Assembly: GCF_003480915.1 (NCBI RefSeq) | Contig: NZ_QUKD01000011.1 | Span: 16,559 to 80,558 of the forward strand | Length of the DNA: 64,000 nucleotides | Reading direction: 5' to 3' | Source of the DNA: Parabacteroides sp. TM07-1AC | GTDB taxonomy: Bacteria > Bacteroidota > Bacteroidia > Bacteroidales > Tannerellaceae | In this document: positions 2,140 through 29,688 of the stretch, piece after piece | Layout of the letters: each line of letters starts with the position of its first letter | Numbering within the stretch: the stretch's first letter is position 1 | Translations under genes and position numbers: made by a program | Notes under the pieces: model-generated | What the model was told of the DNA's origin: nothing | The model's database searches: none | What the model saw: the letters and a program-made list of their open reading frames with translations, nothing else

Positions 2140-2191
2140 TACGGAATAATCGTAATGTGTATATAAATAAACTAATTACGATTATTCCGTA
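2140..2191 (-). terminator. 17-bp perfect hairpin at the end of the ligase gene
   Basis: Arms 2140-2156 and 2175-2191 are exact reverse complements with an 18-nt loop. The hairpin overlaps the last codons and stop of the ligase-like gene. No T-run follows, so it may act as a weak terminator or an mRNA 3'-end stabiliser for the long peptide operon. Confidence 0.5.
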
Positions 2192-3992
2192 TGTTTTTGA
2201 GCATGTTTTTAACTTCCGTTCTCATTTCGCGGATGGCAGTGCTTTCCACTTTCGGCTCTTTTTTCAGTACGGCATCAGCCGCTTTGATAAACTTATCTTC
2301 CTGAAAGAAAGCTTTTTCCGCATAAAGTTTTGTCAACAGATAATACGGATAGATCCGTTCCGGCAGAATTTCTATCGCATGTAGCAATAAATTCTCCGCT
2401 TTCTGATAATTTCCCTGCGATTGCTCATTTTTCGCAGCCATATAATGTATCATCGGATCACCGCTCAATAGCATTGCCCGTTCCAGCAACCGGTTCGCAT
2501 CAGCAAACTGTCCCGTCTTACTCAGACATTGTGCCGCCTCGAACAATAATTCCGGCTTATGTCCCAGTAGCGGCATCAACTCCGTATATCCGTCGCCAGC
2601 CGCTTCATACGCCTTACTGGTATATAGCATCTTCAACGTATTCCATTTCTTGTACCCCTGATAATACCCTTTCTGCAGTCCGAAAATCCATCCGCAGCAA
2701 ATGGTTATCCCTCCGATTATAGCAACAGAGAGTATCTTCTTCCCTGCCGGAGAGGGGGTAGGGATAACCCCCATCAAGATCACCAACACCACCCAAAACT
2801 CCGGCAACTGCAACGGATAAGACGCCAGGCTGAACACCATCAGCGCCAATATCCCCCCAGCTGCCCCGACCTGCTTGTTTTTCACCCCCTGGAACAAGGA
2901 ATAACCTAACAACAATATAAAAACCGTTAAACCCACAATCCCTTGTTCCAGTCCAATCTGTAGAAACTCATTAAACCCATATTCCGGGCATCCCGCCACC
3001 ATCTTCTCTGTTTCCGAAGCGTTCCCCGAGCTAAAATACGCAGCTTGTGCTTCTGCATAAGCCGTCGGAAATCCCCCCAGTCCGGTGCCGGTCCAGGGCT
3101 GTTCCATGATAGCCTGTCCCGTCACTTTCCATAAAAGTAACCGGCCATCGGCGGAATCCTTTTTCAGCAGGTAAACGCCCGCCAGTGCACCGGCTATGGA
3201 GATCAGTATCAAGATGGAAGATAGTATAGATAAGGTCCGGTTTTTGTGTATGTATTGTTTTGCTTTTTCCCATCCTATCCGTTCTGTCCAGTAAATCCAG
3301 GCACACGAAACAGTCGCCGCGATCCATGCTGTCCGGCTCATCCCGGCAGGCAGCACAACGACGATTGCCAATAAGGTGATCCATGCCAGATAGTACAGAT
3401 AAATCTTAGCTTGCCTCCATCCTTCTTTTTTACAGTCGGCAAACTGCAGGATCATCCACAGGCATACAGGTAAAACCATAGCCAGATACCCCGAATAGGG
3501 TCCCGGATTATAGAAATCTCCGGTCAGCCTGAACAGGGAATGGTTAGATCCTTCCAGACCGTGTAACTGTCGCATGCCCGAAACCGCTTCTACCAGTCCG
3601 GTCACAACGATCCCTGTCAGGAAAGCCAATCGCAGTTGCGACCATCCGGCAAACAGGAACCGCAGCAGGAACCACAATAGGACCAGTTGTCCGCCGAACA
3701 GCATTTTCTCCGGTTCCGGATCGAGGTCCCGGTTATAAGTAAGTGCAACGATAGCAGCCAAAGCCAAAACCATTCCGTCTGCCACTGAAAAAGCAAACCG
3801 CTTTGCCGGTTTTGTCAGCACGGCTGCCAACAGGCTGCATACCGCCAGGAACAACATGGCAAGATGGAACCAATGGACTTTCCCTGTGACCAATCCGTTT
3901 GCCAGGCTGTTGTCTGTGGCAAACACGGTGCACAGCAGAAAAATGCCGCTGGTGACTAACAATGAGTAACTTATATATTGTCTGTATTTCAT
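2172..3992 (-). CDS. O-antigen-ligase-like (Wzy/WaaL/PglL type) membrane protein with C-terminal TPRs
   Basis: Polytopic inner-membrane protein of 606 residues. About ten hydrophobic segments fill residues 1-440, with a large periplasmic loop carrying ligase-family sequence (GFNEFLQIGLEQGIVGL preceded by GTGLGGFPTAYAEAQ and an earlier SRTAWIAA). A TPR-like region follows at about 465-590. The family moves lipid-linked glycans onto lipid A or proteins, or polymerises glycan; which one applies here is unknown. Its ATG overlaps the stop of the upstream transglutaminase-like gene by 4 bp, so translation is probably coupled. It is the last gene of the peptide operon, as its paralog at 19866-21950 is in the rSAM cluster. 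That parallel suggests a shared step, perhaps attaching a glycan to a secreted product (inference). Confidence 0.85.
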   Translation of the reverse strand: MKYRQYISYSLLVTSGIFLLCTVFATDNSLANGLVTGKVHWFHLAMLFLAVCSLLAAVLTKPAKRFAFSVADGMVLALAAIVALTYNRDLDPEPEKMLFGGQLVLLWFLLRFLFAGWSQLRLAFLTGIVVTGLVEAVSGMRQLHGLEGSNHSLFRLTGDFYNPGPYSGYLAMVLPVCLWMILQFADCKKEGWRQAKIYLYYLAWITLLAIVVVLPAGMSRTAWIAATVSCAWIYWTERIGWEKAKQYIHKNRTLSILSSILILISIAGALAGVYLLKKDSADGRLLLWKVTGQAIMEQPWTGTGLGGFPTAYAEAQAAYFSSGNASETEKMVAGCPEYGFNEFLQIGLEQGIVGLTVFILLLGYSLFQGVKNKQVGAAGGILALMVFSLASYPLQLPEFWVVLVILMGVIPTPSPAGKKILSVAIIGGITICCGWIFGLQKGYYQGYKKWNTLKMLYTSKAYEAAGDGYTELMPLLGHKPELLFEAAQCLSKTGQFADANRLLERAMLLSGDPMIHYMAAKNEQSQGNYQKAENLLLHAIEILPERIYPYYLLTKLYAEKAFFQEDKFIKAADAVLKKEPKVESTAIREMRTEVKNMLKNIRNNRN

Positions 3993-5911
3993 AGATCAAC
4001 GTTAAATAGTTGTTTCCCACCTTTATATATAAATACCTGTTCCTCCCGTCCTTTGGTTCGATTGCGCAGCCATAGCAAACTTTTATCCGGCACCAGATAC
4101 TCCAGCTCGTGTCTGGTTGCCGTCTGAACTCCAAGTGATTTCCAACCGTTTGTACCGTCCTGATAGAAGAGTTCATATTTATCCCCCGGCCAAACATAAT
4201 TGTCATCATTCCGTGGAGAAAACACAATTTTTTGAATAGGAGTAATTTTCCCTAAATCATATGTGATAAAACAGGCACTATCTTTTGAAGAAAAATAACT
4301 TAATATGTCCCCATCTGTAATATTATCCAGTGAAGCGGTCGGTAATGGGTCATTCATTCTATTTAGATGTAACGACTCTTTTCCGGTAGAATCGGCAAAA
4401 ACAGCCAATTCGGCAAGTTCCATAATATTATCCGGCGGACCGACATAACGTATATATCTGTATTGTTTATTTATATCCGGCGGAATAAGTTCGTAATAGT
4501 TTGATCGGAGAGTATCATTGAATCGGAATAATAGATCTGCCTGTGAAAAGTCTTTATACAGACTGGCTTCTATCTGAGAACCGATGATTCCCCGATGTGG
4601 AAAATCCTTGTAACCACCACATACTGACATTTTCCGCTGAAGAACAGCCTTTTTCAATTTATTGACATCCGGTTTCAATATATAGTTTTTCTTTTTGGTA
4701 TAAATAAACGGATATCCTACTGCCTGATGATTTTGTCCGTCTGAAACCAACGGCTGGTAAATTATATTTGGTTCTAAATTCTTAAAAGTTACATTCCCTT
4801 TATTATTAATTGCTATATCGACAGGGATCCATCCGCTTGGACTGAAAACTCCCAGATAAATGAAATCTTCAAAAGCGGACTGTACAGAGAGAGAAACTTC
4901 ATTTTCTCCGTAATAATTGGCTGTTACATCTTTTATAAAACGATCTCTGAATAATGCCGGCACTTTTTCATCAGCTGTTATTCCGGAGATAGACTCTTCC
5001 TGCAGGCCAAAACAGTATCGGTAGACTTTCCCTTTTTTCCTACCGTCAGTTCCCGGGTTCGTGCGGGAAGCTTCGAATTCATTAAAACCGAACTGGATAA
5101 ACTTTCCAGTCGTATCGCGTAGAGTTGTCCAGTAATGCGGGTGTTGATATTCGGGTGAATAAACAAAATATTCACAGGCTACGGGAATACCGCAGGCGCG
5201 CATGGCATAAAGTGTGACATCGCAGGCTTCCCTGCAGAAGCCTACACGATGGTAGAACAAAAAATCAGCACTTTGGTGAGGTATACTAAAATCCGTATCC
5301 CAACGATAATAAACTTTTTTCAAATCTTTATCGACAGCTTTACAGGCTTCTATCACATCATCTCCCTGGTAGGCGGAATCGAGTATGGCTGTATAATAGT
5401 CATGATATAATTTTCGCCATGACGAGAGTGGTTCATCTCCGATACGATAAGGAAGTATCAGTTCGCAGAAATCATCGAATCCCAGACTCCGGTTCCATGG
5501 ATATTTTTTCCATACATCGAAGGCCAGGTCGATATTTTCAATCAGATAGTCTGCAGTGATTACTTTTGCATCATATACTTTCGGAAGCGAATAAAAAGAA
5601 ACCCGTTGCCATTTTTCAATCACATCTTTCGAAACAACTTCTCCTTTATCTTTTTGTATCAATACCGGTTTGATGGAATCCAGTTGCCACCCCTCATATC
5701 CATACCATCGTGGCATATTGCGGATCAGGAAACGGGCCGCTTCCAATTTCTCCGGATTGTTTTCATAATGTGTTAACACTTTCTCCAGTTCGCCCCGGTT
5801 TTCTCCGGCAAACAGGAGAGCTTGTTCCAAACGTTTGCTATCCGATGAATTGCAAGCCATTAGAAAGATAACGGTAAATATGTTTAATCCAATAATAAAT
5901 AGACTTTTCAT
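3989..5911 (-). CDS. Transglutaminase-like lipoprotein with C-terminal discoidin-like domain
   Basis: 640 residues with a lipoprotein signal (FLMACNSS lipobox), so probably periplasmic or outer-membrane anchored. The N-terminal part has the repeat-like pattern AGENRGELEKVLTHYEN and FLIRNMPRWYGYEGW shared by all four paralogs in the window. The transglutaminase core has the nucleophile region GFCREACDVTLYAMRACGIP, then the His region HPHYWTTL; the third acidic residue is less clear (near QFGFNEFE). The C-terminal third (YIRYVGPPDNIMELAELAVF to the end) resembles an F5/8-type domain. Such folds can be proteases, crosslinkers or amidases; the substrate is unknown. It lies between a signal peptidase I and the ligase-like gene. 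Confidence 0.85.
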   Translation of the reverse strand: MKSLFIIGLNIFTVIFLMACNSSDSKRLEQALLFAGENRGELEKVLTHYENNPEKLEAARFLIRNMPRWYGYEGWQLDSIKPVLIQKDKGEVVSKDVIEKWQRVSFYSLPKVYDAKVITADYLIENIDLAFDVWKKYPWNRSLGFDDFCELILPYRIGDEPLSSWRKLYHDYYTAILDSAYQGDDVIEACKAVDKDLKKVYYRWDTDFSIPHQSADFLFYHRVGFCREACDVTLYAMRACGIPVACEYFVYSPEYQHPHYWTTLRDTTGKFIQFGFNEFEASRTNPGTDGRKKGKVYRYCFGLQEESISGITADEKVPALFRDRFIKDVTANYYGENEVSLSVQSAFEDFIYLGVFSPSGWIPVDIAINNKGNVTFKNLEPNIIYQPLVSDGQNHQAVGYPFIYTKKKNYILKPDVNKLKKAVLQRKMSVCGGYKDFPHRGIIGSQIEASLYKDFSQADLLFRFNDTLRSNYYELIPPDINKQYRYIRYVGPPDNIMELAELAVFADSTGKESLHLNRMNDPLPTASLDNITDGDILSYFSSKDSACFITYDLGKITPIQKIVFSPRNDDNYVWPGDKYELFYQDGTNGWKSLGVQTATRHELEYLVPDKSLLWLRNRTKGREEQVFIYKGGKQLFNVDL

Positions 5912-5921
5912 GGCTTTCGGT

Positions 5922-6797
5922 TTAATGAATTACTTTTAAAAAACGACCCCATCTGAACTTATCCGTATACGGATCTACTGATTTCCATATAATCCAGGCT
6001 TTCCCAACAATATATTCTTCAGGCAATAAGCCCCAATAACGTGAATCCTGTGAATTCATGCCGTTGTCGCCTGCCATGAAGTAGTAGTTTTTCAGGAAAC
6101 GATACCCACTGATCGGTTTCCCGTTGAGAAAAGCTATAGAGTCTTTGTATTGGAGACTTTCTTTTTGTTCCCACTCAATCAGTTTTTTATATAATTGGAA
6201 ATTTCGCTGATTCATTGCTATGGAATCTCCTTTAGCTGGTATATAGAGAGGTCCGAAATTTTTAATATTCCAGCCAATCACGCTATCGAACGGAAAGCTG
6301 TTATAGATTCCGTCTCCAAATTTATTTGTTGTGGCTATTTGTTTTTGTGAGTTTGTATTGCCGAGAGGTGCTTGTATTCCTTGAACATGAAAGTACCCAT
6401 TTTGAATGGACAGGGTATCTCCCGGTAATCCTATACAACGTTTGATGTAATATTTCAAAATGTGCATTTCTATTTTATCCCAGCTGTTCGGATGGGGAAA
6501 ATTGAAAACCAGAATATCATTCCGTTTTATTTTCTTAAATCCTGGAATCCGGTAAATCTCTGTTTGCTCATTTCTCATAGAGGCGAACAGATTGAAAATA
6601 CGAGGACCGATTGTCGGCTTCCAAACCAATACATTATCTCCGGTAGTCAATTCTGGCTCCATCGAATCACTGGGTATTTTGAAAGAAGCAAACACGAATA
6701 CCTGCACAACAAACCACAAAGCAACTATCATACATAGCCAGAAAACTATATTGATTGCTTTATTTATTAGATTTTGTATAAGTGTTTGTTGCTCCAT
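5922..6797 (-). CDS. Signal peptidase I, cluster-associated
   Basis: Removes N-terminal signal peptides at the outer face of the inner membrane. A single N-terminal transmembrane helix (about 15-37) is followed by box B IPSDSMEPEL with catalytic Ser45, the Lys box YIKRCIGLPGD, and the C-terminal signature GDNGMNSQDSRYWG. At 291 residues it is a normal Bacteroidetes length. The four-base gap from the upstream transglutaminase-like gene and the ten-base gap downstream show operon membership. A housekeeping signal peptidase is not usually found in such a setting. I infer that this copy matures proteins of the cluster, such as the NVEALA peptides. The coding sequence is AT-rich compared with the efflux genes. 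Confidence 0.92.
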   Translation of the reverse strand: MEQQTLIQNLINKAINIVFWLCMIVALWFVVQVFVFASFKIPSDSMEPELTTGDNVLVWKPTIGPRIFNLFASMRNEQTEIYRIPGFKKIKRNDILVFNFPHPNSWDKIEMHILKYYIKRCIGLPGDTLSIQNGYFHVQGIQAPLGNTNSQKQIATTNKFGDGIYNSFPFDSVIGWNIKNFGPLYIPAKGDSIAMNQRNFQLYKKLIEWEQKESLQYKDSIAFLNGKPISGYRFLKNYYFMAGDNGMNSQDSRYWGLLPEEYIVGKAWIIWKSVDPYTDKFRWGRFLKVIH

Positions 6798-6801
6798 GAT
6801 A

Positions 6802-8301
6802 TCAATATCTTTTCAAACTGTCGTTTTCAATAAATAATATACGTTGATTAATTATTTTTTCCGGAACTGTATACCATAGTAAAGCATTTTTTGGTATTTG
6901 ATCATATGTCTGTGTGGTATCTGTCTCACTAATATATTTTAATGGGATGAACCTTGTTTTGTCTGTGTCCCAATAATGTAGTGTATGTGTTTGATCAGAT
7001 TTGTTTTTGCGTTTATTGAATATAAAGATTTGTTTATGTTCTTTTTGTGGAATGAACTTACGTGTATATCCCTTTTTGTCACTATAAAAAGGAGCAGTGA
7101 TATAACGCAATCCGATTCCATCAGGAGAGTCAGCAATCATAAAAATATTATCTCCGACAACATTGTCGAAATAGCAAACAGTATCTTTTCTCTGTCCGAT
7201 TGCTATTGGATGCCATTCGTAATAGTTATAAATGCACAAGTACACTTGGTTTGATTTACCCCTTTTTATGTTTCTCTTATCGATAGAAACCTGTATTTGT
7301 GTTGTTTTATCTAAATATTCATCGGTAACATCATGTATTAAAGGATTTTTCAGATAAGTAATATATCCATCATCATCCATATCAATTATAGAAAGATCAG
7401 AGTCAAAACAGTTGCGATAAACTTTACTCGGTCGCAGATTACGTTTTTCAGAAAAATCTTGTGCATGTAAAATCGGTAGTTGCCCTTCAGGATCAAAGCT
7501 ATAAAACTTGCCATTATCCAAAACAACACACCATACATGACCCAAATCCATTTTTGTCCAAATAGTTTGATCTATAGTAACTGGGATACCAACAGCTCTC
7601 ATAATAAAAATTCCCAAATTGCATAAACCATCACATAGGCCAATACTGGAACGATATGTCTCATCTATAGTTGGGTATAGAGAAAGTCCTGTATCTTTAT
7701 ATTTAATAAAGTCTTTTAGGTATTTTTGTAGAGTTATGCATGCTTCTAATGGTGTATTAACTTTGGCTGAATCTAATATAGGAAGGAAACGTTCCTTTAT
7801 TTCTTTTCTTAGATTTGATATTTCTTCTGTTTGTGCTCGGTATGGGAGAATGTATCTACAGAAGTCATTAAAAGAAATATTTCGTGCCCAAGGTTTCTGC
7901 CAAACTTCGAATGCTAGTTCTATATTATTGATAAGGAACCTACTGTCGAGTGATGAAATGTCATATACTTTTTGTTTTTTGATTCTATAACCTTGTCTAA
8001 GTAAAGAATCACAATGTGTCTTAACTGCTTTTTTTCCATTGAATAAACTTATGTCAGGTCGATATTTTTCTCCTTGAGAAGATAGGAAATATTCTTCTTG
8101 AGAGAAGTGGTAAGGCATGTTCTTGATTAGGTAATGTGCTGCTTGCAATTTTAATTCGTCATTTTTATAATGATTTATAACTTTCTCTTGTATAAGAGAA
8201 TATTTATTATGTTCTCTTGAACCATATTTTAGTTGCTTGTCCTTTTGAAAAGTACAAGATGTAATTAAAATGATATAAGATATGTAACTAAAATATTTCA
8301 T
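6802..8301 (-). CDS. Transglutaminase-like lipoprotein, short form
   Basis: 499 residues with a lipoprotein signal (IILITSCTF). It shares the N-terminal pattern VINHYKNDELKLQAAHYLIKNM with its paralogs. The core triad is the best preserved in the window: Cys in IGLCDGLCNLGIFIMRAVG, His in DLGHVWCVVLDNG, Asp in YSFDPEGQ. Unlike the paralogs at 3989, 13938 and 27325 it has no discoidin-like domain; its C-terminal part ends soon after a beta-rich segment. Two transglutaminase-like genes flank the signal peptidase gene in one operon, suggesting successive or partner roles. The region is very AT-rich, which fits acquisition by transfer. Confidence 0.85.
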   Translation of the reverse strand: MKYFSYISYIILITSCTFQKDKQLKYGSREHNKYSLIQEKVINHYKNDELKLQAAHYLIKNMPYHFSQEEYFLSSQGEKYRPDISLFNGKKAVKTHCDSLLRQGYRIKKQKVYDISSLDSRFLINNIELAFEVWQKPWARNISFNDFCRYILPYRAQTEEISNLRKEIKERFLPILDSAKVNTPLEACITLQKYLKDFIKYKDTGLSLYPTIDETYRSSIGLCDGLCNLGIFIMRAVGIPVTIDQTIWTKMDLGHVWCVVLDNGKFYSFDPEGQLPILHAQDFSEKRNLRPSKVYRNCFDSDLSIIDMDDDGYITYLKNPLIHDVTDEYLDKTTQIQVSIDKRNIKRGKSNQVYLCIYNYYEWHPIAIGQRKDTVCYFDNVVGDNIFMIADSPDGIGLRYITAPFYSDKKGYTRKFIPQKEHKQIFIFNKRKNKSDQTHTLHYWDTDKTRFIPLKYISETDTTQTYDQIPKNALLWYTVPEKIINQRILFIENDSLKRY

Positions 8302-8333
8302 ATAAATATTATAAAAACACTGGATTTTTTTTA

Positions 8334-9395
8334 TTATAGTTGCATCATTACAATATGATATTCAGGCTCATTAGTTATACCATATAATCTATCAGTTTTA
8401 GGATCAATCGTAAATGAAAAAATGGGAGTATCTAAATTGTAAATGCGGATTGGATTTCCATCCCAATCAAAAACAAATAGAAAATCATTGTTAAAGTCGT
8501 AATTGTCAGGGTCGTATATTTTTCCAGAGTATAAAACATAGATTTCATTTTTATATGCAATTGGAGAAAAATAACCATCTTTAGACTTCCCCTTCTCAAA
8601 GCCTATAGTTTGTTCATTGCCATTGTTGTGAATTATGATTGAAGGAAAGAATCCTTCAGGGCCTTGTTTGCGGGTAATAAGATTTCCTTTCATATCATAA
8701 ATTTCTATTAAATCGGTATAATTATATGCAACGAATATTTTATCCTTCTCTTCATTTGCTACTATACTACATTCATATCCTGCCATTTTTTGAATGGTAT
8801 TTAACTCGTTATTTTTAATAATGGGGTATTCCCCTTTAGTCTCAATGAATTCTCCATTTAGATTAAAGAATGACAATCTTTGGTGTTCTGGGGAATGTAT
8901 AGTTGTAACTATTGTACCGTTTTTTAAGAGTTGTATGTTACTAACGAAATCCTTGAAATTAATTGTTTTTTTTAATACAGGTGATTGATTGTGGCAAAAA
9001 TCAAATTTGTTATATATAGCAAGCTTTTGTTTTCCTCTATCTAAAATACAGACATCAGAATCTTGGACAATTACATGTTTAGGAGCAATCATTTCATCTG
9101 GACCATTTCCAAAAGAAATATATTCTCCGGTTTTTTCAAGAGTATTTAGATTATATCTGTCTATAAATAAATCAGTTCTCATGTTGATTAATACTAAAAA
9201 TGAATCTATCGTATATATATGTACAGGTCTTTTTACAGGCTCCTCAAAGGAAACTGATTTCCCTTCCAATGTCTTTGTTTGTTTAAAACTTTGGAGAGTA
9301 AAAAATTGTGTGTGTTCATATTCTTTATTTGAATTGCATGCAGAAAATACACTTGTTATAATAATGATGTATTGTATAAATATATATTTGTTCAT
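8334..9395 (-). CDS. Six-bladed beta-propeller lipoprotein (BF3164-like)
   Basis: 353 residues. The N-terminus FIQYIIIITSVFSACNSN is a lipoprotein signal. The body alternates strand-turn units such as LVLINMRTDLFIDRYNL, ISFGNGPDEM, IVQDSDVCILDRGKQKLAIY and a closing FVFDWDGNPIRIYNLD. This is the usual pattern of Bacteroidetes 6-bladed propeller lipoproteins (PF15869/PF17170-like) commonly found with NVEALA peptides. The role is unknown; propellers of this type bind ligands or partner proteins. It sits 32 bp upstream of the short transglutaminase-like gene and 6 bp downstream of a gene of unknown function. Confidence 0.82.
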   Translation of the reverse strand: MNKYIFIQYIIIITSVFSACNSNKEYEHTQFFTLQSFKQTKTLEGKSVSFEEPVKRPVHIYTIDSFLVLINMRTDLFIDRYNLNTLEKTGEYISFGNGPDEMIAPKHVIVQDSDVCILDRGKQKLAIYNKFDFCHNQSPVLKKTINFKDFVSNIQLLKNGTIVTTIHSPEHQRLSFFNLNGEFIETKGEYPIIKNNELNTIQKMAGYECSIVANEEKDKIFVAYNYTDLIEIYDMKGNLITRKQGPEGFFPSIIIHNNGNEQTIGFEKGKSKDGYFSPIAYKNEIYVLYSGKIYDPDNYDFNNDFLFVFDWDGNPIRIYNLDTPIFSFTIDPKTDRLYGITNEPEYHIVMMQL

Positions 9396-9401
9396 CTTTT
9401 T

Positions 9402-10043
9402 CTATTTTTTTGATGTTGTAGTATAAATAATAGTGATGTATCTTTTTATTTCAGAAAAAGGTTTTTTTGAATGATCGAATTGAATAAATAACGAATCATT
9501 TTTTGTGTATTTACGTATTATCTTTTCCATATTGTTATTAATATCATCCTCGTATAAAAATATTATTGGAGTGTTTTTGCTATTGTTGAGTATTTTATGA
9601 TTGAATGGTATACTTTTAAATTTGTGATCTTTATTCACATTTCTATACCTGAAACGAACTAAACTTGGTAGCATTGTATAGATTGTTAATATCTCACAAT
9701 TAGCTGTGTCTGCTATTATTTCTGCAGAAAAATAGTCGTTACTTGAATAAGTAGATCTTTCTAGTAAATTGTCGTCATTTTCAATTTTTTCATTGTCTAT
9801 GTATTCTTCCATATATATTGAAACTGTTGTTTCAGAAGTAAATTTGTTACTTTTTATTTTATTTATTTTGAGTTGAGGTGAAGGTAAATAGGAGGCTGTC
9901 TCGCTTTTCGAAACAGTTTTAGATGTAAATACATTATTTCCATTTTTTTTGAAAAAACTTATCGAGTCTACATAATTCTGTGACGAGATTGATTGTGAAA
10001 ATGAAGTAATCAATATGGTTATAATAATTAATGTATCTTTCAT
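9402..10043 (-). CDS. Exported protein of unknown function
   Basis: 213 residues that I do not recognise. The first 21 residues look like a cleavable signal peptide (IIITILITSFSQSISSQ, no lipobox). The mature part is Lys/Asn/Ser-rich with a beta-strand pattern and no Cys apart from one near residue 116; there are no transmembrane segments. It lies between an NVEALA peptide gene and a propeller lipoprotein gene on the same strand, so it probably belongs to the peptide operon, possibly as a periplasmic chaperone, immunity or carrier protein (speculative). The very low GC content matches its neighbours from 6.8 to 10.4 kb. Confidence 0.7.
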   Translation of the reverse strand: MKDTLIIITILITSFSQSISSQNYVDSISFFKKNGNNVFTSKTVSKSETASYLPSPQLKINKIKSNKFTSETTVSIYMEEYIDNEKIENDDNLLERSTYSSNDYFSAEIIADTANCEILTIYTMLPSLVRFRYRNVNKDHKFKSIPFNHKILNNSKNTPIIFLYEDDINNNMEKIIRKYTKNDSLFIQFDHSKKPFSEIKRYITIIYTTTSKK

Positions 10044-10058
10044 TTTTATAAATTATAA

Positions 10059-10115
10059 TGTAGGACAAAAATGTATCAAAAAATAATATTACCAAGATAC
10101 ATATTTTGCCCTACA
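10059..10115 (-). terminator. Imperfect 19-bp hairpin downstream of the second NVEALA gene
   Basis: Arms 10059-10077 and 10096-10115 pair over TGTAGGxCAAAA and TGTATC with one mismatch and one bulge. It lies between the NVEALA stop and the next start. No T-run follows. It could be an attenuator or a processing site that raises peptide mRNA over the downstream genes. Confidence 0.5.
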
Positions 10116-10125
10116 ATGTTAATGT

Positions 10126-10371
10126 TTATATACGAGCTCTAAAATAGAAACATATTTGATTAAGATGTCCATCGGAGTATACAAGGCAGTCAGAAATAGA
10201 ACTAGCGGTACAATGCGGAATACAATCAAATGCACCTTCACCTAGTGCTAAAGCTTCTACATTAGCTAATGCTAGATCTGACAAATCCACTTCATTTTGA
10301 CTTTTGCTAAAATTCCAGCCAGCTGTAGTTACTACGGCTGCGATAGCTATAATACCCAAAAACTTTTTCAT
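10126..10371 (-). CDS. NVEALA-family secreted peptide (second copy)
   Basis: 81 residues. The N-terminal part (MKKFLGIIAIAAVVTTAGW) is a hydrophobic leader. The NVEALA signature sits at residues 37-42, preceded by DLSDLALA and followed by a Gly-rich turn (LGEGAFDC). The C-terminal piece has four Cys (50, 54, 62, 74), suggesting disulfides or metal binding after export. The NVEALA family (PF14055) is Bacteroidetes-specific and of unknown function; the conserved motif followed by small residues resembles a leader cleavage region. The 208-bp gap upstream contains a 10-bp hairpin, so this gene may have its own control, though I see no TAnnTTTG box there. Confidence 0.9.
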   Translation of the reverse strand: MKKFLGIIAIAAVVTTAGWNFSKSQNEVDLSDLALANVEALALGEGAFDCIPHCTASSISDCLVYSDGHLNQICFYFRARI

Positions 10372-10579
10372 ACTTGTATTATTTTAATTGTTTGTATGAT
10401 TATTATTAAATCAGGTAATTTTCTATCTTTGCTTACTATTATTCAGATTTAGATAGTCGAATGGCACCTGTATCATTCTGTTTTGTCGGTTATATTACCA
10501 TCATACACCTCCTTTTCGGGGTCTCCGGGAGTTTGCTTGTACAATTTTGCCGTCGTGCAGCAAACTCCCTTTCGTTCGA
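10372..10579. other. 208-bp gap with a hairpin, upstream of the second NVEALA gene
   Basis: On the minus strand the hairpin arms are 560-569 and 527-536 (offset 10000; GGGAGTTTGC and its complement) with a 23-nt loop. Downstream is a strong Shine-Dalgarno-like AAAAGGAGGTGT followed by ATGATGGTAATATAA, a four-codon frame, perhaps a remnant. No protein gene is supported here. Confidence 0.5.
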
Positions 10580-11461
10580 TCACCGAACATTCCCCTTTAT
10601 CCTCCCCTTGATAGGTTGGTTGTTCATACTATTATACTTAATTGTTACGACTTCATCGAAGAAACCAGTATCCTTCGGTGTCATCTTGATTCCCACCTGG
10701 AGACTTTCTCCGGGTTTCGCAGGTCGTTTGTCATACGTGGCTGCCGTACAGCCGCAGGTGGTACTTACGTCCACTATCACGAGGGGATTGTCCCCTGTGT
10801 TTTTAACCTCTATGGTTGTTTCTTTTATTTCCGATTTGTTGAATGTGCCGAAGTCTATCTCTGTTTGTGTCGCTTCGGCTGTTGTTTTCAACATATTTTT
10901 GGTTGAACTTTCTTTTCCGGTGATTTGTTTCAGATAAAGGTCTTTGATTGCTGTATTGTGTACAGGGTTACCCAAAACTGCAACTTTGTTATTTTTGTCG
11001 AGCAAAAATGTCTGAAAAGTCATATCTGCCGGAAATTTGTTTAACTTATTCAATAGGTCTTCTCTATCAATGCAAACTGGTAGATTAAAACTTTCTCGTT
11101 TCAACAGGTAACGTATCTCTTTGTTGTCTTTCGGATGAAAGAAGAAGAGGAACGGCACTTCTCTCTGTGTCATGGAATCGGTATACTCAATCAACTCTTT
11201 CCATTTAGGTAGTTGTAGTTTGCAGCTGGTGCAACCGATGGAATCGACATAGACTAATATTTTGTAGTCAGATTGCGGTATCTGATAGTCAGTCGTATCT
11301 GTCAGATAACGGGTGAAGATTGCATTTTCTGGAAACAGAATTTGTTTCCCTTGCCATTCGTTTACCAATTGTGAGATGTGCTTTTCTTTCTCTTTGTGCT
11401 CGTTTTTGCAGGAGAAGAAGATAGGTAATAATACTAGTATGATTAGATTTAAAGTTTTCAT
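10580..11461 (-). CDS. Lipoprotein with thioredoxin-like and DUF1573 domains
   Basis: 293 residues with a lipoprotein signal (LLPIFFSCKNE). Residues about 60-180 resemble a thioredoxin-like fold with a single CxxC at IGCTSCKLQLPKWKEL, followed by FLFFFHPKDNKEI. Residues about 195-293 are a DUF1573 (Ig-like) domain with the hallmark VSTTCGCTAATYDKRPAKPGES. Both halves have Cys pairs, pointing to redox or metal chemistry in the periplasm, perhaps disulfide handling of the Cys-bearing NVEALA peptides (inference). It lies 8 bp downstream of the propeller gene, in one operon with NVEALA copy one. Confidence 0.85.
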   Translation of the reverse strand: MKTLNLIILVLLPIFFSCKNEHKEKEKHISQLVNEWQGKQILFPENAIFTRYLTDTTDYQIPQSDYKILVYVDSIGCTSCKLQLPKWKELIEYTDSMTQREVPFLFFFHPKDNKEIRYLLKRESFNLPVCIDREDLLNKLNKFPADMTFQTFLLDKNNKVAVLGNPVHNTAIKDLYLKQITGKESSTKNMLKTTAEATQTEIDFGTFNKSEIKETTIEVKNTGDNPLVIVDVSTTCGCTAATYDKRPAKPGESLQVGIKMTPKDTGFFDEVVTIKYNSMNNQPIKGRIKGNVR

Positions 11462-11469
11462 CTTGTCCT

Positions 11470-12534
11470 TTAAATTTTAAATTCTATAATTGGATCATCA
11501 CTTTCAACCTCGGTAGCGACGATCGTATTTGTTTTTTCGTTTATATCAATGCCATATATGGCTCTGTCAAGAGTGTATTTTTGAACAGGATTACCCTGTA
11601 AGTCGAAAACATAGATGAACCGACTTCCGTCTTCCGGTTCTTTTCCTCGTTGATAGGCAGCTAGCATTTCTTTAAATTTAATCCCTTGAAATACTGCATA
11701 AATATGTTTGTCTGTTACTTTTATGTCACAAAATCCCATAATGCCTATCGGAATACTTGAGCCATTATTGCCTATTTTGAATTCAGGTTCTCCTTCCGGA
11801 CCATACAAAACTTTATGAGTGCTGTCTTTTAAATTGTAAATTTCTAATGTTTCCCCTAGTTGCGTAGCCATAACCAGTATGCCATTATCCGGATTGTAAT
11901 CCATAAAACTACGCCATGCCTGTGCTAATGCCGGACGGGATATTTCTTTATCGGCTGTTTCGCTGGGTATTTTACCTATGCTTTGGACTGGTTGACCATT
12001 GTTGTCTACTTCCCAAAAACGATGCTCTCCCAGATAGTCCGGAATCAAAAAGCCCGATTCCATCGCATAAAAATCTAGTGAACGGACTAATTTCTTATTT
12101 AATTTAATCTCTTCAACCCGTTCCGCAGAACCGGTTGAAGGAGAGATTTTCCAACGTGTAATCTCCATCTTGTTGGCATCGAGTGTCCATAAAGAGTCCA
12201 GAGAGTTAAATTGAATGTTTTCTGCTGATAACATCTCTTCTGGAGCTTCCCCGCGTTTTCCAAATGAAACAACATGTTTCCATCCCGGATAGGTAAAGGC
12301 ATGCAGGTAATGGTCCATATTATGTAAATCCATTACTACCGCTATACTATCCTTGACCGCCACCCTAAACGGGTAGCGGAGCAGGATAGTATCCAGAGGA
12401 ATTATCTGGGCACGTATTGCTTTCTCCTCGGGAAAAGTTGTATAACGGGGGTAGTGCGTACCGGGGGAACCGGTACAACAGATCAAGCTTTTTGTAATAA
12501 CTATACCTACTAATATGTATAGGAGATGTTTCAT
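11470..12534 (-). CDS. Six-bladed beta-propeller lipoprotein (BF3164-like)
   Basis: 354 residues with a lipoprotein signal ending LICCTGSPG. Blade-like repeats include VSFGKRGEAPEEMLSAENIQF, LWTLDANKMEITRW and a closing RFIYVFDLQGNPVQKYTLD. The phrase FxFGxGGxGPxE typical of the family is present as SFGKRGEAPEEM. It starts 5 bp after the stop of the first NVEALA peptide gene, a pairing common in Bacteroidetes, so the two are likely co-expressed and may interact at the cell surface or in the periplasm. Paralog of the genes at 8334, 37399 and 47876. Confidence 0.85.
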   Translation of the reverse strand: MKHLLYILVGIVITKSLICCTGSPGTHYPRYTTFPEEKAIRAQIIPLDTILLRYPFRVAVKDSIAVVMDLHNMDHYLHAFTYPGWKHVVSFGKRGEAPEEMLSAENIQFNSLDSLWTLDANKMEITRWKISPSTGSAERVEEIKLNKKLVRSLDFYAMESGFLIPDYLGEHRFWEVDNNGQPVQSIGKIPSETADKEISRPALAQAWRSFMDYNPDNGILVMATQLGETLEIYNLKDSTHKVLYGPEGEPEFKIGNNGSSIPIGIMGFCDIKVTDKHIYAVFQGIKFKEMLAAYQRGKEPEDGSRFIYVFDLQGNPVQKYTLDRAIYGIDINEKTNTIVATEVESDDPIIEFKI

Positions 12535-12539
12535 GAATG

Positions 12540-12770
12540 CTAGTCTAAGCTGTAATCATCGACAATATATTTTACTTTAGTTCCATTAGGGCAGTCTAAA
12601 GGACCACTTCCTCGACAAAACCACATACTACTTCCTCCTTCACCAGCGGCTAAGGCTTCTATGTTTTCCAAAGCCACATCTGATAAAGGGGTGCTTTTTT
12701 CTTCCATAAGATAAATACCTCCTGCTAGGAGTATTCCCATTACTGTTACTTTAATAAGAGTTCGTTTCAT
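12540..12770 (-). CDS. NVEALA-family secreted peptide (first copy)
   Basis: 76 residues: hydrophobic leader 1-21 (MKRTLIKVTVMGILLAGG), then the signature NIEALA at 36-41 preceded by LSDVALE, a Gly-rich turn AAGEGGSSMWFC, and a short tail with two Cys (52, 60). It is the first gene of the minus-strand operon. Its promoter (12793-12824) is a textbook Bacteroidetes promoter, with an upstream TGAC triple element shared with the gene at 13938-15875. The divergent neighbour is a ToxR-like membrane regulator, the likely controller. Confidence 0.9.
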   Translation of the reverse strand: MKRTLIKVTVMGILLAGGIYLMEEKSTPLSDVALENIEALAAGEGGSSMWFCRGSGPLDCPNGTKVKYIVDDYSLD

Positions 12771-12792
12771 TGTTCTTTAAAATTTTTGTGTG

Positions 12793-12824
12793 CAAATGTA
12801 TAGGTGGGGCCATAAAGGACCAAA
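12793..12824 (-). promoter_or_regulatory. Promoter of the NVEALA-1 operon
   Basis: Minus-strand TTTG (12821-12824) is followed after exactly 20 bp by TACATTTG (12793-12800), matching TTTG-N19-21-TAnnTTTG. The expected start of transcription is near 12786, about 16 nt before the ATG. Confidence 0.8.
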
Positions 12825-12833
12825 TATTTGCAC

Positions 12834-12874
12834 TGACATTTCACTGACAGCTTAAAATAAGGCTATTTTTGACT
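12834..12874 (-). promoter_or_regulatory. Triple TGAC element, copy A (probable activator site)
   Basis: TGAC occurs at 12834, 12845 and 12870, spaced 11 and 25 bp. The blocks read TGACATTTCACTGACA and ATTTTTGACTAGATT. The element sits immediately upstream of the -33 box. The same words with the same 11/25 spacing recur at 15936-15976. Confidence 0.7.
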
Positions 12875-12914
12875 AGATTATACCAATTTGTATTATAGAT
12901 TGTGTAAGATTATC

Positions 12915-12922
12915 TACTTTTG
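12915..12922 (+). promoter_or_regulatory. -7 box of the ToxR-like regulator gene
   Basis: TACTTTTG fits TAnnTTTG and lies 25 bp before the ATG. A TTTG at 12887-12890 is 24 bp upstream, slightly too far, so the promoter may be weak. Element A is within reach, so the regulator may control itself. Confidence 0.5.
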
Positions 12923-12946
12923 TACGAATCAAAATAGAAAATAACA

Positions 12947-13933
12947 ATGGTTTTGTTGATGAAGAAAAAGGTGTTCGTTGGATGCTTATTATTGTGCATG
13001 ATGACACTTTTAGTTTATTCTATGTACATTTTTCACAGAGAGCGACAAGCTACTTTGTCGGATATTTGTAACTTATGTGATGAGATCATACATCAGGATA
13101 AAGAATATAGATTGAAAGAAACTGGTATATTATCTTCTTCTGGATATAAATCATCGGAGAGTGATAGTTCCACAGTCTTATATTCTAGTGGTCAGGTGGA
13201 GAAAGTCGCTAAAAATACCGACTCTTCTGATTTAATAACAGAAGAAAAGCTGTATAGAGTTGATCAATCTTTCCTTTTAATGGAGAATCCTATTGATGTA
13301 GTAGTTTTGGACAGCCTGTTTAACTTGGCTTTACAGCAGGGTGGCATGATAAATGTACATGCAGCATTGGCTTATACTGCAAATGATGATAAAACAGTAT
13401 ATAGTAATCCGGATTTGACTTTTTATAAGTCTGCTTGTGCTTTGCCACCTATTACTACAGGTGTAAAAGATGAAATTGTCTTACAAGCCTATGTAGAGAT
13501 ACCTTTTTATTGTGTGATTAATAGGAGCAAAGGACATTTTATTATTATTGGAATTGTATTTTGTCTTCTTTTGGGACTTTTAATAGCTATCAAGTATAAT
13601 AAGAAATTTGTGACGCCAGTTTGTGAAGAGTCTAGAACGTTAATAAAAATCAAGGAGAATATACTTTTTGATGATGAAAAAGGAATTCTTTATTTTAATA
13701 CTGATATTCAGGTACATTTGGTAAATTATAAATTGAAATTATTTGTTTTATTATTAGATAGCCCTGGACATTTTCAAACTTCAGAAGAGATAAAGATGAT
13801 TGTATGGGAAAAAACTGGGGCTACAAATGATGTATTAAATACAACGATCAGAAGGCTTCGCAAAGATTTGGAGAATATACCTGATCTAAAGATTGTTTTT
13901 GAAAACGGAGGTTATCGGTTGAATATTCTTTAG
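12947..13933 (+). CDS. ToxR-like transmembrane winged-helix regulator
   Basis: 328 residues. One transmembrane helix at 8-28, an extracytoplasmic domain of about 165 residues, and a second helix at about 197-216 lead to a cytoplasmic C-terminal domain at about 225-328. That domain has an OmpR/PhoB-type winged-helix pattern, with FQTSEEIKMIVWEKTGATNDV, then NTTIRRLRKDL as recognition helix and FENGGYRLNIL as wing. Such one-component regulators sense the periplasm and bind DNA directly. It is divergent from NVEALA-1 and convergent (4-bp gap) with the transglutaminase-like gene; both have the TGAC element in their promoters. I infer it is the local activator. Start at 12947; 12959 is an alternative. 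Confidence 0.85.
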   Translation: MVLLMKKKVFVGCLLLCMMTLLVYSMYIFHRERQATLSDICNLCDEIIHQDKEYRLKETGILSSSGYKSSESDSSTVLYSSGQVEKVAKNTDSSDLITEEKLYRVDQSFLLMENPIDVVVLDSLFNLALQQGGMINVHAALAYTANDDKTVYSNPDLTFYKSACALPPITTGVKDEIVLQAYVEIPFYCVINRSKGHFIIIGIVFCLLLGLLIAIKYNKKFVTPVCEESRTLIKIKENILFDDEKGILYFNTDIQVHLVNYKLKLFVLLLDSPGHFQTSEEIKMIVWEKTGATNDVLNTTIRRLRKDLENIPDLKIVFENGGYRLNIL

Positions 13934-13937
13934 TTAT

Positions 13938-15875
13938 TTACCACCAAATCTGTTCTCCGTTTTCATAGGTGAATATTCGTTCTTCATTTCCTCGGGAATG
14001 ATTATGTAGTAGATAAAGAGTTCGAGAGGGAACGTTGTCGTAGGTCACTTGTTCCTTGTCTGCAATCTGTTTGCCTGCTGACTCCCATTTTCCTGATTCA
14101 GACCAAAACATTAGTTCATACGTATCTCCAACGCGTATATTATTATCGTCATTTCTGAATTGATAATAAATCTTTGTTACCCTTTGAGGTTTATCTAAAC
14201 TAAGACCAGCCCAAGCACCGTTAGGTTCATTTGCATCATAAAATGTCAGTGGGTTGTTATCGAATACCGCTTTTTTAGTTCGATTTGGATCGTTTTGGAA
14301 AGAACCTTCTGTTCCAATAACTATTCCCTCTACAGGTTTATTACTATTATCTGTATAAAACCTGACTTCTGCCATATTGCAACAGCCATCTATACCGGAT
14401 AAATACCGAAGATATTTGAATCGTTTGGATTCCTGGATATCAACGGTGTAAGAGTTCATTGTCGCTTCATGCGTAATAGTATGCAATGTGACTGAGTCTT
14501 TAAAATCAATACGGTTAGCTCCTTGGAATTTCCCGTTCAATGTTCTCTTTTTGTACCAAAACCACCATTTGGGTGTAGAATGTTTGCGTGTTAAAATCAT
14601 CTTTTGCCTCTGCTCATAGTCTGGCTTTAAATAGTCTGTTTTGCCATTTTTTTTAACGATGAACGGACAGGATGATGCTTTGAATTGATCCTTTTGGTAA
14701 TAACCAGCAATATAAGCAATCTCTGATTCTAAGTGCCTGAATATTCCGCGTTTGTTTTTGATTTCAGTCCAAGCTACAGGTATCCAGTTTTTATTATCGA
14801 ATACGCTTAAATACAAGATGTTTTCTTTTTTCTCACTGCAAGGTATTGCTATGTTTAGCTCTTCTTTGAAATATAGATCGGACACATCCCGCATGAATGC
14901 ATTGCTGAGAATGGGAGGGATCGGCTTATTCCTATAGACCATCGGTAAACTGTTTTTTTGCACAGAAAAATATTTCCGGTAAATTATTCCCTTCTTTATT
15001 TCTGTTCCCGGATCGTGTTTTGAACCGGGACGTAAATCGTATAATTCAAATTCAGTGTATTTGCCGTTATTGTCTGTGACATAATTCCATGAATGGCCTT
15101 TGTGCATTCTGTCGGGATGTTGTAGGATGAAGTCTATACCACCAGATATGCCTAATGCACGCATGATATAAACGCTGAGGTCGCAACGGTCATCACATGT
15201 GCCGAACCTGTTGTCTAATAAATTTAATGCACCCAGATGTGGAAATTGATATTTGTAGTTGAACACCCATGTCTGTTCTTTTATATGATCGAATATGATT
15301 TGACATGCTTTAATCGGATCATTGTCTATACCCAGCGAATCTAATAGCGGTTGATATCGTTTGAAATAAACTTCTCTCCAATCCTCCAGAGGCTCGTTTC
15401 CAATTCTGTAAGGAAGTATGGTCTCACAAAAGTCACTAAAAGAGATATGTTTACCCCATGGTTTCTCTCTCCAAATTTTGAAAGACTGGTCTATGTTCTT
15501 TATAAGATAGTCTGCTGTTATGACATGAGCATCATACACTTTTCTGAAAGTATTATTAGAAAGTATTCCAAATCGTTTTTGAGCTATTTGAATTGCTTCG
15601 TCATCAGAACATTCATTTTCTATCGCGATTTTATATAGATTATTTTTATACTGATCGAGTTGTTTACTTTCGTATGCATAATAGAAAGGCATATTCTCAA
15701 TCAGGAACATCGCGGCTTTGAGCTTGAGCGAATCGTTTTCATAATGCTTTAATACCTTCTCCAATTCAATTCTGTTTTCTCCGGCAAATTTTAACGCGTC
15801 ATTTAATCTTTTCTTGCCTGATGGTTGGCAAGAAACTATAATAATTGGCAATAGTATGAAAATGAAATTTTTCAT
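13938..15875 (-). CDS. Transglutaminase-like lipoprotein with discoidin-like C-terminus
   Basis: About 645 residues from MKNFIFILLPIIIVSCQPSG, a lipoprotein signal. An upstream ATG at 15896 would overlap the predicted -7 region (15894-15901), so I prefer 15875. Core residues: Cys in RFGTCDDRCDLSVYIMRALG, His in HKGHSWNYVTDNNG, acidic residue near FELYDLRPG. The C-terminal domain RYLSGIDGCCNMAEVRFYTD to the end is discoidin-like. Close paralog of 3989-5911 and 27325-29277 (shared AGENRIELEKVLKHYEND). It is a single-gene unit with its own TGAC-element promoter, so it belongs to the NVEALA regulon although not to its operon. Confidence 0.87.
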   Translation of the reverse strand: MKNFIFILLPIIIVSCQPSGKKRLNDALKFAGENRIELEKVLKHYENDSLKLKAAMFLIENMPFYYAYESKQLDQYKNNLYKIAIENECSDDEAIQIAQKRFGILSNNTFRKVYDAHVITADYLIKNIDQSFKIWREKPWGKHISFSDFCETILPYRIGNEPLEDWREVYFKRYQPLLDSLGIDNDPIKACQIIFDHIKEQTWVFNYKYQFPHLGALNLLDNRFGTCDDRCDLSVYIMRALGISGGIDFILQHPDRMHKGHSWNYVTDNNGKYTEFELYDLRPGSKHDPGTEIKKGIIYRKYFSVQKNSLPMVYRNKPIPPILSNAFMRDVSDLYFKEELNIAIPCSEKKENILYLSVFDNKNWIPVAWTEIKNKRGIFRHLESEIAYIAGYYQKDQFKASSCPFIVKKNGKTDYLKPDYEQRQKMILTRKHSTPKWWFWYKKRTLNGKFQGANRIDFKDSVTLHTITHEATMNSYTVDIQESKRFKYLRYLSGIDGCCNMAEVRFYTDNSNKPVEGIVIGTEGSFQNDPNRTKKAVFDNNPLTFYDANEPNGAWAGLSLDKPQRVTKIYYQFRNDDNNIRVGDTYELMFWSESGKWESAGKQIADKEQVTYDNVPSRTLYLLHNHSRGNEERIFTYENGEQIWW

Positions 15876-15893
15876 GTATATGTTATTTGTGTA

Positions 15894-15976
15894 CAAATGA
15901 ACTTATTTGGTTTCATTTTCATGGCTTCTTAGCAATGACATTTTACTGACTGTATTGATTAGAATAGGTTTTGACT
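15894..15976 (-). promoter_or_regulatory. Triple TGAC element copy B and near-consensus -7 box
   Basis: TGAC at 15936, 15947 and 15972 (spacing 11 and 25, as in copy A) within TGACATTTTACTGACT and GGTTTTGACTGATT. The minus-strand TTCATTTG at 15894-15901 has one mismatch to TAnnTTTG. The element-to-box distance is 35 bp, against 34 bp in copy A. No -33 box is evident, consistent with activator dependence. Confidence 0.65.
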
Positions 15977-21950: not shown

Positions 21951-23133
21951 ATCTTTTTACTAAAGGTTGAACTAATTTCCAGAACAGGTACCCGACCAAT
22001 GCCAAGAAGAGCAATTGTGATCCGATATTGCGCAGCAGGGCAAACGGTGGTGCCATGCCATTGGACAAATAGAGGATCAGTTCGTTCACTGCGTCAGGGA
22101 ATGTGCAGATAAACCGGTATAGGAAATTGGGGATAAGATAGAAAAAGTAGAAACCCATAAACAAGTTAACTACAATGGAATAGGCTAATAATCCGTATTT
22201 TGCTGCCGGGCGTATTTGCAACAGGTAAGGAACCGTTGTTATCGGCAGTTTGCGCATGCGTTTGTACCAATAGCCTAACAGTTCTTTTGAACGGGTACGC
22301 AGGTTAGGTATGCCTAACAGGTCGGAGGCGATCCAATAACCGTCAAATTTGAAGAACGGGTTTAGGGTCATCAGGAATCCAAAATTCATAATCAGGATGA
22401 GGTAACGCAAGATATCGTTTCCGGTAAAAAAGAATCCAATCAATAACCCGATCAACCAATAAGATTGAAAATAAACGCCTGCAATATTGACAATACAGCG
22501 TTGTGCCCTTTTTAGTTTCCAAACTTCGGTCACGTCGGTATAAAGGACAGGGAAATTTAAGTATAAACCAAATCCTATCCCACCATGTCGTACACCAAAA
22601 TATTTACAGGCGGAGGCATGACCTAATTCATGCAAAAAGGAAGAAATAAGCGTGAATGTAAATAGCCCGAAGACGATATAAATATTGGCTTTAGTATTAA
22701 AAGCTAATAGATCATCTGTTGTTATGAAAAAACATATATCAAGTAATATGCTAACTGTCAATATAACAGTCATGCATAGAGATTTAAACAAAAAACTAAA
22801 TTTATCCGAAAACTTATCAACAGTACTTACATTAAATAATTCCTTTTCATAAATGAAAGAGCTGTTTTTATTTGCATTAAGGGTAAAAATAGGTGTAATG
22901 AACTTATCTATAATTATTTGTACTTGTTCGAATGTGTATTTCTTTTTTGTTCGACAAATGTAAGCACTAATAGCTTCTTTTTCATTGGAATATTTTTGTA
23001 ATTCTTCTACTAAGTCTACAATAGGCTTACTAGCTTCATAATATTTGGGACCATATGACAATAAATATCTTTCTTTCTGTGCAGAAGAAGACAAGGAATG
23101 AATTGAAATTTCATTATACTTATTTATTTCCAT
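21937..23133 (-). CDS. M50 (site-2-type) membrane metalloprotease with PqqD-like N-terminus
   Basis: 398 residues. Residues about 22-85 (YLLSYGPKYYEASKPIVDL to QVQIIIDKF) resemble a PqqD/RRE-like wHTH that binds RiPP leader peptides. The membrane core has the zinc motif HELGH at 168-172 and the third ligand motif NPFFKFDGYW at 258-267, with about six helices. This is the architecture of M50 proteins found in peptide-maturation clusters, where they cleave leaders or assist export. It lies 7 bp downstream of the beta-barrel gene. No HlyD arm is present. Confidence 0.9.
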   Translation of the reverse strand: MEINKYNEISIHSLSSSAQKERYLLSYGPKYYEASKPIVDLVEELQKYSNEKEAISAYICRTKKKYTFEQVQIIIDKFITPIFTLNANKNSSFIYEKELFNVSTVDKFSDKFSFLFKSLCMTVILTVSILLDICFFITTDDLLAFNTKANIYIVFGLFTFTLISSFLHELGHASACKYFGVRHGGIGFGLYLNFPVLYTDVTEVWKLKRAQRCIVNIAGVYFQSYWLIGLLIGFFFTGNDILRYLILIMNFGFLMTLNPFFKFDGYWIASDLLGIPNLRTRSKELLGYWYKRMRKLPITTVPYLLQIRPAAKYGLLAYSIVVNLFMGFYFFYLIPNFLYRFICTFPDAVNELILYLSNGMAPPFALLRNIGSQLLFLALVGYLFWKLVQPLVKRYVKQ

Positions 23134-23140
23134 ATCATTT

Positions 23141-25459: not shown

Positions 25460-25632
25460 GATAGGGTCTTATTTTATAATGATTTGTATCTTGATTTTAT
25501 ATCAATGGTTGTATTTCATTTTTGAACGGTTCTCAACTCTTTTTATTATGATTTCATTTGAAGAATATATGTCAACTATTGATGTATAATGTTTATATTG
25601 TTATTCTTTATGTATGGAGACTTATAGGTGCG

Positions 25633-25671: not shown

Positions 25672-25698
25672 TCATTTTAGATTCAAAACTCGTTACCT

Positions 25699-25899: not shown

Positions 25900-25930
25900 T
25901 TTTTTATAGATTAATTAGTAAATAATAAAT

Positions 25931-29663: not shown

Positions 29664-29688
29664 TTGTGTTTGTTTTTGTTTACGATTG

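Follow-up and report, generated by a model that had tools for sequence, protein, structure and literature searches.

An ordered gene set around NVEALA peptides in Parabacteroides and its proposed reading as a secreted-peptide system with self-linked regulation

Positions 2172..15875 of a 64,000-nt stretch of Parabacteroides sp. TM07-1AC (contig NZ_QUKD01000011.1; the whole stretch analysed is called the window) carry the locus studied here, which encodes two NVEALA peptides (PF14055) together with a signal peptidase I (SPase I), two propeller lipoproteins, a CxxC/DUF1573 lipoprotein, three transglutaminase-like lipoproteins, a Wzy_C/TPR membrane protein and a membrane regulator; all the genes named in an initial annotation of this DNA are present. 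We read the locus, with a probability of roughly 0.55, as a Bacteroidales secreted-peptide system with self-linked regulation. The association of these genes is real and ordered, far above chance, and by its sequence the peptide beside the regulator is a distinct class. The gene set is conserved in gut Bacteroidales and apparently undescribed: in the open literature searched we found neither the locus machinery, the regulator-linked peptide subclass and the leader element described below, nor a function for NVEALA.

Co-occurrence at chance level, which the initial annotation had named as the outcome that would count against it, was not what the comparison gave: SPase, transglutaminase, Wzy_C/TPR and NVEALA genes go together both by genome and by place. 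The count that was not centred on the transglutaminase covered 38 genomes from the family of P. goldsteinii, 21 of which have NVEALA genes. Stand-alone SPases (280-345 aa; 30 among the matches listed in these genomes) and NVEALA were both present in 18 genomes, SPase only in 2, NVEALA only in 3 and neither in 15 (Fisher p 8.6e-6); transglutaminase and NVEALA were both present in 17, transglutaminase only in 3, NVEALA only in 4 and neither in 14 (p 2e-4, or 3e-6 if two fragment-only genomes are scored as lacking transglutaminase); and Wzy_C/TPR and SPase were both present in 18, one only in 2 and 2, and neither in 16 (p 1.5e-6), all of these p values ignoring shared descent. By position, 24 of the 30 stand-alone SPases among the matches listed lay within 10 kb of an NVEALA gene (0.40 expected), as did 33 of 49 transglutaminases (0.73 expected) and none of the 38 housekeeping LepB genes. 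Of 39 Wzy places, 9 have no partner inside 10 kb.

A transglutaminase-centred set came from a scan of genome contigs with an alignment of 20 transglutaminases; of 577 stretches the best 80 were retained, giving 79 loci. With the window added, this 80-locus table, in which many loci are shortened by contig ends and the profiles started from window proteins, holds Wzy_C in 48 loci, propellers in 34, the CxxC/DUF1573 protein in 34, SPase in 28, NVEALA in 27 and the regulator in 14. In many of 16 regions compared, and with some variation, the genes come in one order: the regulator first, then the two-Cys peptide, a propeller, the CxxC protein and further peptide-propeller units, often a transglutaminase, then SPase and Wzy_C. 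Outside the P. goldsteinii family, NVEALA was not found in G009, a genome that has transglutaminases, nor in the genomes that supplied the Pedobacter and Flavitalea transglutaminase loci (L051, L061). G028, which lacks NVEALA, has a broken SPase next to a Wzy_C remnant (G028:C24:20615-22085), a case of joint decay.

In the window, the minus-strand genes run in the order NVEALA 1, propeller, CxxC/DUF1573 lipoprotein, a 208-nt leader, NVEALA 2, a 213-aa protein, second propeller, transglutaminase, SPase I, transglutaminase and Wzy_C/TPR protein, with intergenic gaps of -4 to 82 nt, the leader aside. The first propeller gene starts 5 nt after NVEALA 1, the regulator gene is divergent from NVEALA 1, and the third transglutaminase lies on the regulator's far side. 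The features are:

2172..3992, minus strand: Wzy_C membrane protein with C-terminal TPR (PF04932, 57.4 bits)
3989..5911, minus strand: transglutaminase-like lipoprotein with discoidin-like C-terminus (below Pfam cut-off)
5922..6797, minus strand: signal peptidase I of a locus-specific clade (PF10502, TIGR02227, tree)
6802..8301, minus strand: transglutaminase-like lipoprotein without C-terminal sugar-binding module (PF01841, 25.9 bits)
8334..9395, minus strand: second six-blade propeller lipoprotein (PF15869, 99.2 bits)
9402..10043, minus strand: 213-aa exported protein, no family match
10126..10371, minus strand: NVEALA peptide 2, 81 aa, 4 Cys in the tail (PF14055, 46.0 bits)
10508..10577, plus strand: leader element of NVEALA 2
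10580..11461, minus strand: lipoprotein with CTSC motif (thioredoxin-like region) and C-terminal DUF1573
11470..12534, minus strand: six-blade propeller, putative lipoprotein (PF15869, 290.9 bits)
12540..12770, minus strand: NVEALA peptide 1, 76 aa, regulator-linked class (PF14055, 41.4 bits)
12793-12800: -7-like element TACATTTG, downstream of the candidate operator
12831..12849, minus strand: candidate operator, perfect direct repeat TGTCAGTG-AAA-TGTCAGTG, period 11
12947..13933, plus strand: membrane regulator (PF00486)
13938..15875, minus strand: third transglutaminase-like lipoprotein (open reading frame 13938-15896, likely start ATG at 15875)
15933..15951, minus strand: second, degenerate candidate operator AGTCAGTA-AAA-TGTCATTG, upstream of the third transglutaminase

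The regulator is built of an N-terminal long helix (transmembrane, TM), an alpha/beta domain, a second helix (TM) and a winged helix of the ToxR/PhoB type, which occupies about residues 233-328 of 328 and is therefore C-terminal, not N-terminal (AlphaFold2 model: pLDDT 83, pTM 0.54). Among solved structures the best profile match of the winged helix is ToxR, with the TcpP, CadC and PhoB DNA-binding domains also matched; by fold it resembles PhoB-type domains. The peptide encoded beside it has two Cys in a tail of the form CxGxGxxDCP. Across loci, a CxGxGxxxC tail, nearly always with two Cys, was found in 12 of 13 regulator-adjacent peptides and 5 of 49 others, where the pattern was chosen on these data, and out of sample in 11 of 13 and 9 of 54, respectively (p 7e-6). 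Of all regulator-peptide pairs collected, 29/31 have such a tail, or 28/30 distinct pairs because two of the loci (L027 and L092) are the same; at L275, one of the two misses, another NVEALA gene sits nearer the regulator. The initial annotation was right in seeing two NVEALA peptides and had not separated the regulator-linked one from the others.

Upstream regions of this kind carry direct repeats with a period of 11 in 7 of 15 cases (about six of them independent, because the window and the P. goldsteinii locus L001 are near-identical), compared with at most 2 for any other period from 8 to 24. The window's TGTCAGTG repeat is also found in L001. The repeat word varies between loci and recurs within a locus, as in L042, where it occurs in three places, one exact and two with one mismatch. 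In both the window and L001 (counterpart TGTCATTAAAATGTCATT) a box precedes the third transglutaminase; in the window, at 15933-15951, it was not picked up as a repeat by the period test. We regard TGTCAGTGAAATGTCAGTG and this box as candidate operators, predicted to be bound by the winged-helix domain.

A maximum-likelihood tree of 69 SPases groups the locus type in one clade (99/98), with 45 of 46 locus-type SPases inside it, 19 of the 46 having been labelled by profile score and hence not being independent evidence for the clade. From the transglutaminase loci, window included, 26 of 27 SPases fall inside (the other is L019 of Dawidia), and an SPase unlinked to a locus (L160) falls outside. 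The active-site Ser and Lys are intact in 46/46 locus-type SPases. Both window peptides exceed the PF14055 cut-off of 27 bits, and in an alignment of 62 NVEALA proteins the conserved segment ends with A54/S6/T1/D1 at -1 and Ala at -3 in 58, followed by a variable +1 and Glu at +3 in 52. The conserved EALA fits an AXA-type SPase I site, unusually distant from the hydrophobic stretch. The export and signal cleavage proposed in the initial annotation gain indirect support from this motif and from the locus-specific clade with its intact Ser/Lys. There is no double glycine where the NVEALA motif ends, and export of the C39/double-glycine kind was rejected: of 70 matches to C39, 1 lies within 10 kb of an NVEALA gene. 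At G029:C2:507434-507802, a single short C39 peptidase has as neighbours a stand-alone SPase and a weak match to NVEALA.

Cysteines in the peptide tails tend to be even in number. Among the 55 of 62 tails that could be parsed (7 dropped), there are 2 Cys in 17, 4 in 22, 6 in 10, an odd number in 5 and none in 1, that is, an even number in 49/55; a second, partly overlapping set of 80 gave even counts in 68 of 76 Cys-bearing tails. The CxxC motif is kept in 45 of 53 relatives of the DUF1573 protein, and the window protein shows a weak match to StoA (E 0.037). Both the even counts and the kept motif lend indirect support to the redox help earlier ascribed to this lipoprotein, which probably assists disulfide formation in the tails.

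Upstream of NVEALA 2, the window leader consists of CCTCCTT (10508-10514), an 11-bp inverted repeat (10527-10569) and then TTTCGTTC. AAGGAGG occurs within 260 nt upstream of 55/109 other NVEALA genes vs 0/37 two-Cys-tail genes, mostly at -90 to -160, with control words reaching at most 7/109; the counts include relatives, so not all cases are independent. Read on the reverse strand, TAnnTTTG, the Bacteroides -7 consensus, lies 4-12 nt before CCTCCTT in 34 of 53 leaders. A GC-rich stem follows CCTCCTT in 43 of 49 (46% of shuffles), at least three T after the stem are found in 32 of 43 (40% in shuffles) and at least three A before it in 7 of 43; a looser hairpin test gave stems in 43 of 53 shuffles, and these counts come from a stricter one. 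With the T-runs on the reverse strand, a sense-strand terminator was rejected. In 20 genomes, 28 of 79 matches to the combined pattern lay within 500 nt of NVEALA (0.09 expected), and the pattern was not enriched genome-wide (79 matches vs 89 for a reversed control), so that what is enriched is the position next to NVEALA and not the total number. The window copy has CCTCCTT, the stem and the T-rich end, with no TAnnTTTG close upstream. Bacteroidota ribosomes normally ignore Shine-Dalgarno sequences. The leader looks like a reverse-strand small-RNA gene with an anti-Shine-Dalgarno word, and the predicted small RNA, a candidate on the plus strand, would start near CACCTCCTTT and end beyond the hairpin; a sense-strand role of the leader is also possible. 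One report describes Bacteroidia ribosomes as failing to recognise Shine-Dalgarno sequences and ribosomes without bS21 as favouring strong ones (PMC9976891).

A propeller is the next annotated same-strand gene within 1.5 kb for 42 of 62 NVEALA genes; a comparison of the propeller with solved structures gave no meaningful match. Away from the peptide locus, two more window proteins are matched by the locus propeller profile (37399-38424 and 47876-48877). In B. fragilis, beside mutL, an array weakly matching the NVEALA propellers (L273) occupies the place where some strains, according to one report (PMC5705921), carry the gene for BfUbb.

The transglutaminase-like proteins carry the core fold. 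In 110 aligned sequences Cys and His are kept throughout (110/110), and the aligned third residue is Asp in 11 and Glu in 37; by alignments the protein at 6802..8301 keeps Cys-His-Asp. Residues 440-572 of the third transglutaminase, its C-terminal module, match the carbohydrate-binding module of 2yb7, except that the order of the two halves is exchanged. The window Wzy_C protein scores above the cut-off of 31.7 bits, and R220 and R284 are present in 60/60 proteins of the locus type. In O-antigen ligase the His of the HN motif has a catalytic role. This His is missing in all 60 (F53 Y3 P3 L1). Seven other Wzy_C proteins, from three genomes, have it in 3 cases, so the HN motif is not universal among those either.

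On this evidence we propose the following mechanism. NVEALA prepeptides would be inserted via their N-terminal hydrophobic segment, and the co-encoded SPase I clade would cut after EALA. The released tails may form disulfides, as the even Cys counts suggest, probably with the help of the CxxC/DUF1573 lipoprotein. The propeller lipoproteins, given their gene pairing, would cooperate with the neighbouring peptides as receptor, carrier or immunity protein. The divergent membrane regulator would bind the period-11 repeats and drive the locus, as the repeats together with a PhoB/ToxR-type domain suggest. Its most likely ligand would be the two-Cys peptide beside it, making the system self-sensing, because a class-specific tail is tied to the regulator. 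The other peptides, with variable tails and arrayed as peptide-propeller cassettes, would be cargo, and the Wzy_C/TPR protein and transglutaminase would act in the envelope. Of the mechanisms we infer, processing by the locus SPase and recognition of the two-Cys peptide by the regulator have the best support; the cargo peptides may act as signals or as antagonists. A more specific joint reading, rather doubtful as a whole, has an inverted ToxR-type regulator bind the two-Cys peptide outside the cell as its ligand and the dedicated SPase free the cargo, whose cassettes would use the reverse-strand anti-Shine-Dalgarno small RNA to set cargo translation, for communication or antagonism.

Several observations weigh against a secreted-peptide system of this kind. 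The Leu at -2 is near-invariant (59/62), beyond what SPase I requires, and the EALA end lies a median of 24 residues past the hydrophobic stretch, a long way for an ordinary SPase I, and cleavage could therefore take place at another position. Three of the 21 NVEALA genomes (G023, G025, G039) have no stand-alone SPase among the matches listed, and two genomes have a stand-alone SPase without NVEALA (G028, where it is broken, and G031). A strong period-11 repeat is lacking in 8 of 15 upstream regions, and for two of the seven that have one the score was also reached by 17 (L036) and 13 (L076) of 300 shuffles. The Mantel correlation of the tail with the sensor (r 0.58; 0.43 with the winged helix) makes no correction for shared descent and counts one locus twice. 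The analysis shows which genes are present and linked, the clade of SPases, the statistics of the motif and of Cys, the repeats and the peptide class; the biochemical steps are proposals.

Another possibility, which we consider unlikely though worth keeping in play, is antagonism, in which the multi-Cys peptides would be secreted toxins against relatives, the propellers immunity proteins and the regulator-linked peptide a reporter of cell density. Peptide-propeller pairs and variable tails fit this, and B. fragilis offers a parallel: its secreted ubiquitin-like toxin BfUbb adjoins divergent propeller genes, as the report cited above describes, and the mutL region of one B. fragilis genome gives four weak matches to the locus propeller profiles. 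That region, however, has no NVEALA, regulator, SPase or transglutaminase match, and propellers also exist without a peptide. Ten proteins have no PADLOC match, which speaks against a defence system and, within the reach of a resource on anti-phage defence that leaves bacteriocins aside, against antagonism.

Improbable, and the weakest part of the initial annotation, is its proposal that NVEALA tails, once cleaved, are joined to the envelope or glycans by transglutaminase and Wzy_C ligase. The gene neighbourhood is in its favour (Wzy_C/TPR within 3 kb of 20/30 SPases, SPase within 3 kb of transglutaminase in 16/30), as are the carbohydrate-binding module and the kept Arg residues. Yet the minimal loci L221 and L223 consist of regulator, peptide, propeller, CxxC protein, SPase and Wzy_C, with no second peptide and no transglutaminase, although their genomes (G027, G011) have transglutaminases elsewhere; two further genomes (G036, G047) have NVEALA and SPase without transglutaminase (E 1e-30) and without this Wzy_C type (E 1e-10). 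The scarce triad Asp, the missing HN His and the presence of NVEALA in only 27 of the 80 transglutaminase loci, many of them short, count against attachment as well. Passive clustering, in which genomic islands would hold unrelated surface genes, we find hardly credible: copies are gained and lost together, including the decayed set in G028, but the recurrent order, the SPase clade, the regulator-tied peptide class and the reused operator words are hard to get passively, and the linkage counts of SPase, transglutaminase and Wzy_C disfavour it.

The closest named relatives of the locus belong to Parabacteroides. P. goldsteinii supplies the top-scoring genome locus for the third transglutaminase (78%), and NVEALA 1 is 92% identical to a protein named for P. 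gordonii. The 213-aa protein had no meaningful Pfam, NCBIfam or PHROG score and matched itself alone in the 80 loci. Of the peptide-modifying enzymes that a RiPP cluster would have, no maturase was found by Pfam or NCBIfam in 2172-15875, where the transglutaminases could modify peptides, and an Rfam gathering search of window positions 1-32000 gave no match. A phage origin was rejected: three tested proteins lack a PHROG match, and six peptide patterns taken from the third transglutaminase fitted no viral contig. StxB and PRK09419 came up as weak names in the NCBIfam search, far under cut-off, and were disregarded.

This analysis makes the NVEALA genes a testable system with a predicted cut site, ligand-regulator pair, operators and small RNA. 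Should the regulator prove to sense the peptide, common gut commensals would be using a one-component membrane regulator for peptide signalling. The SPase clade would exemplify a signal peptidase adapted to a remote site. Both window peptides pass the curated cut-off of the PF14055 family, for which the open literature searched gave no description of the machinery, the regulator-linked subclass or the leader. Double-glycine bacteriocin systems with C39 transporters likewise have small Cys-bearing exported peptides and a conserved leader; the present locus lacks the double glycine, and C39 is unlinked. Within the window, 19866-31583 holds a radical-SAM peptide cluster with a fourth transglutaminase-like lipoprotein, a SPASM protein, a Wzy_C/TPR protein, a TonB-type barrel, an M50-type protease and a 66-aa Cys-bearing candidate precursor (25699-25899), and similar sets occur in L043, L070 and L074. 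It shares the transglutaminase-like lipoprotein and Wzy_C/TPR with the NVEALA locus, whereas the radical-SAM/SPASM protein, protease and precursor replace NVEALA, SPase and propellers. In Bacillus, SipW is reportedly a signal peptidase I whose gene stands with those of TasA and TapA, the exported proteins presumed to be its substrates; the present locus is alike in this arrangement and differs in host group, substrates and partners, its SPase specificity being predicted. With ToxR, TcpP and CadC the regulator shares a winged helix (ToxR by profile) on a membrane protein, here with a domain between two TM helices. ToxR has its DNA-binding domain at the N-terminus; in the present regulator it follows the second TM helix at the C-terminus, the reverse of ToxR.

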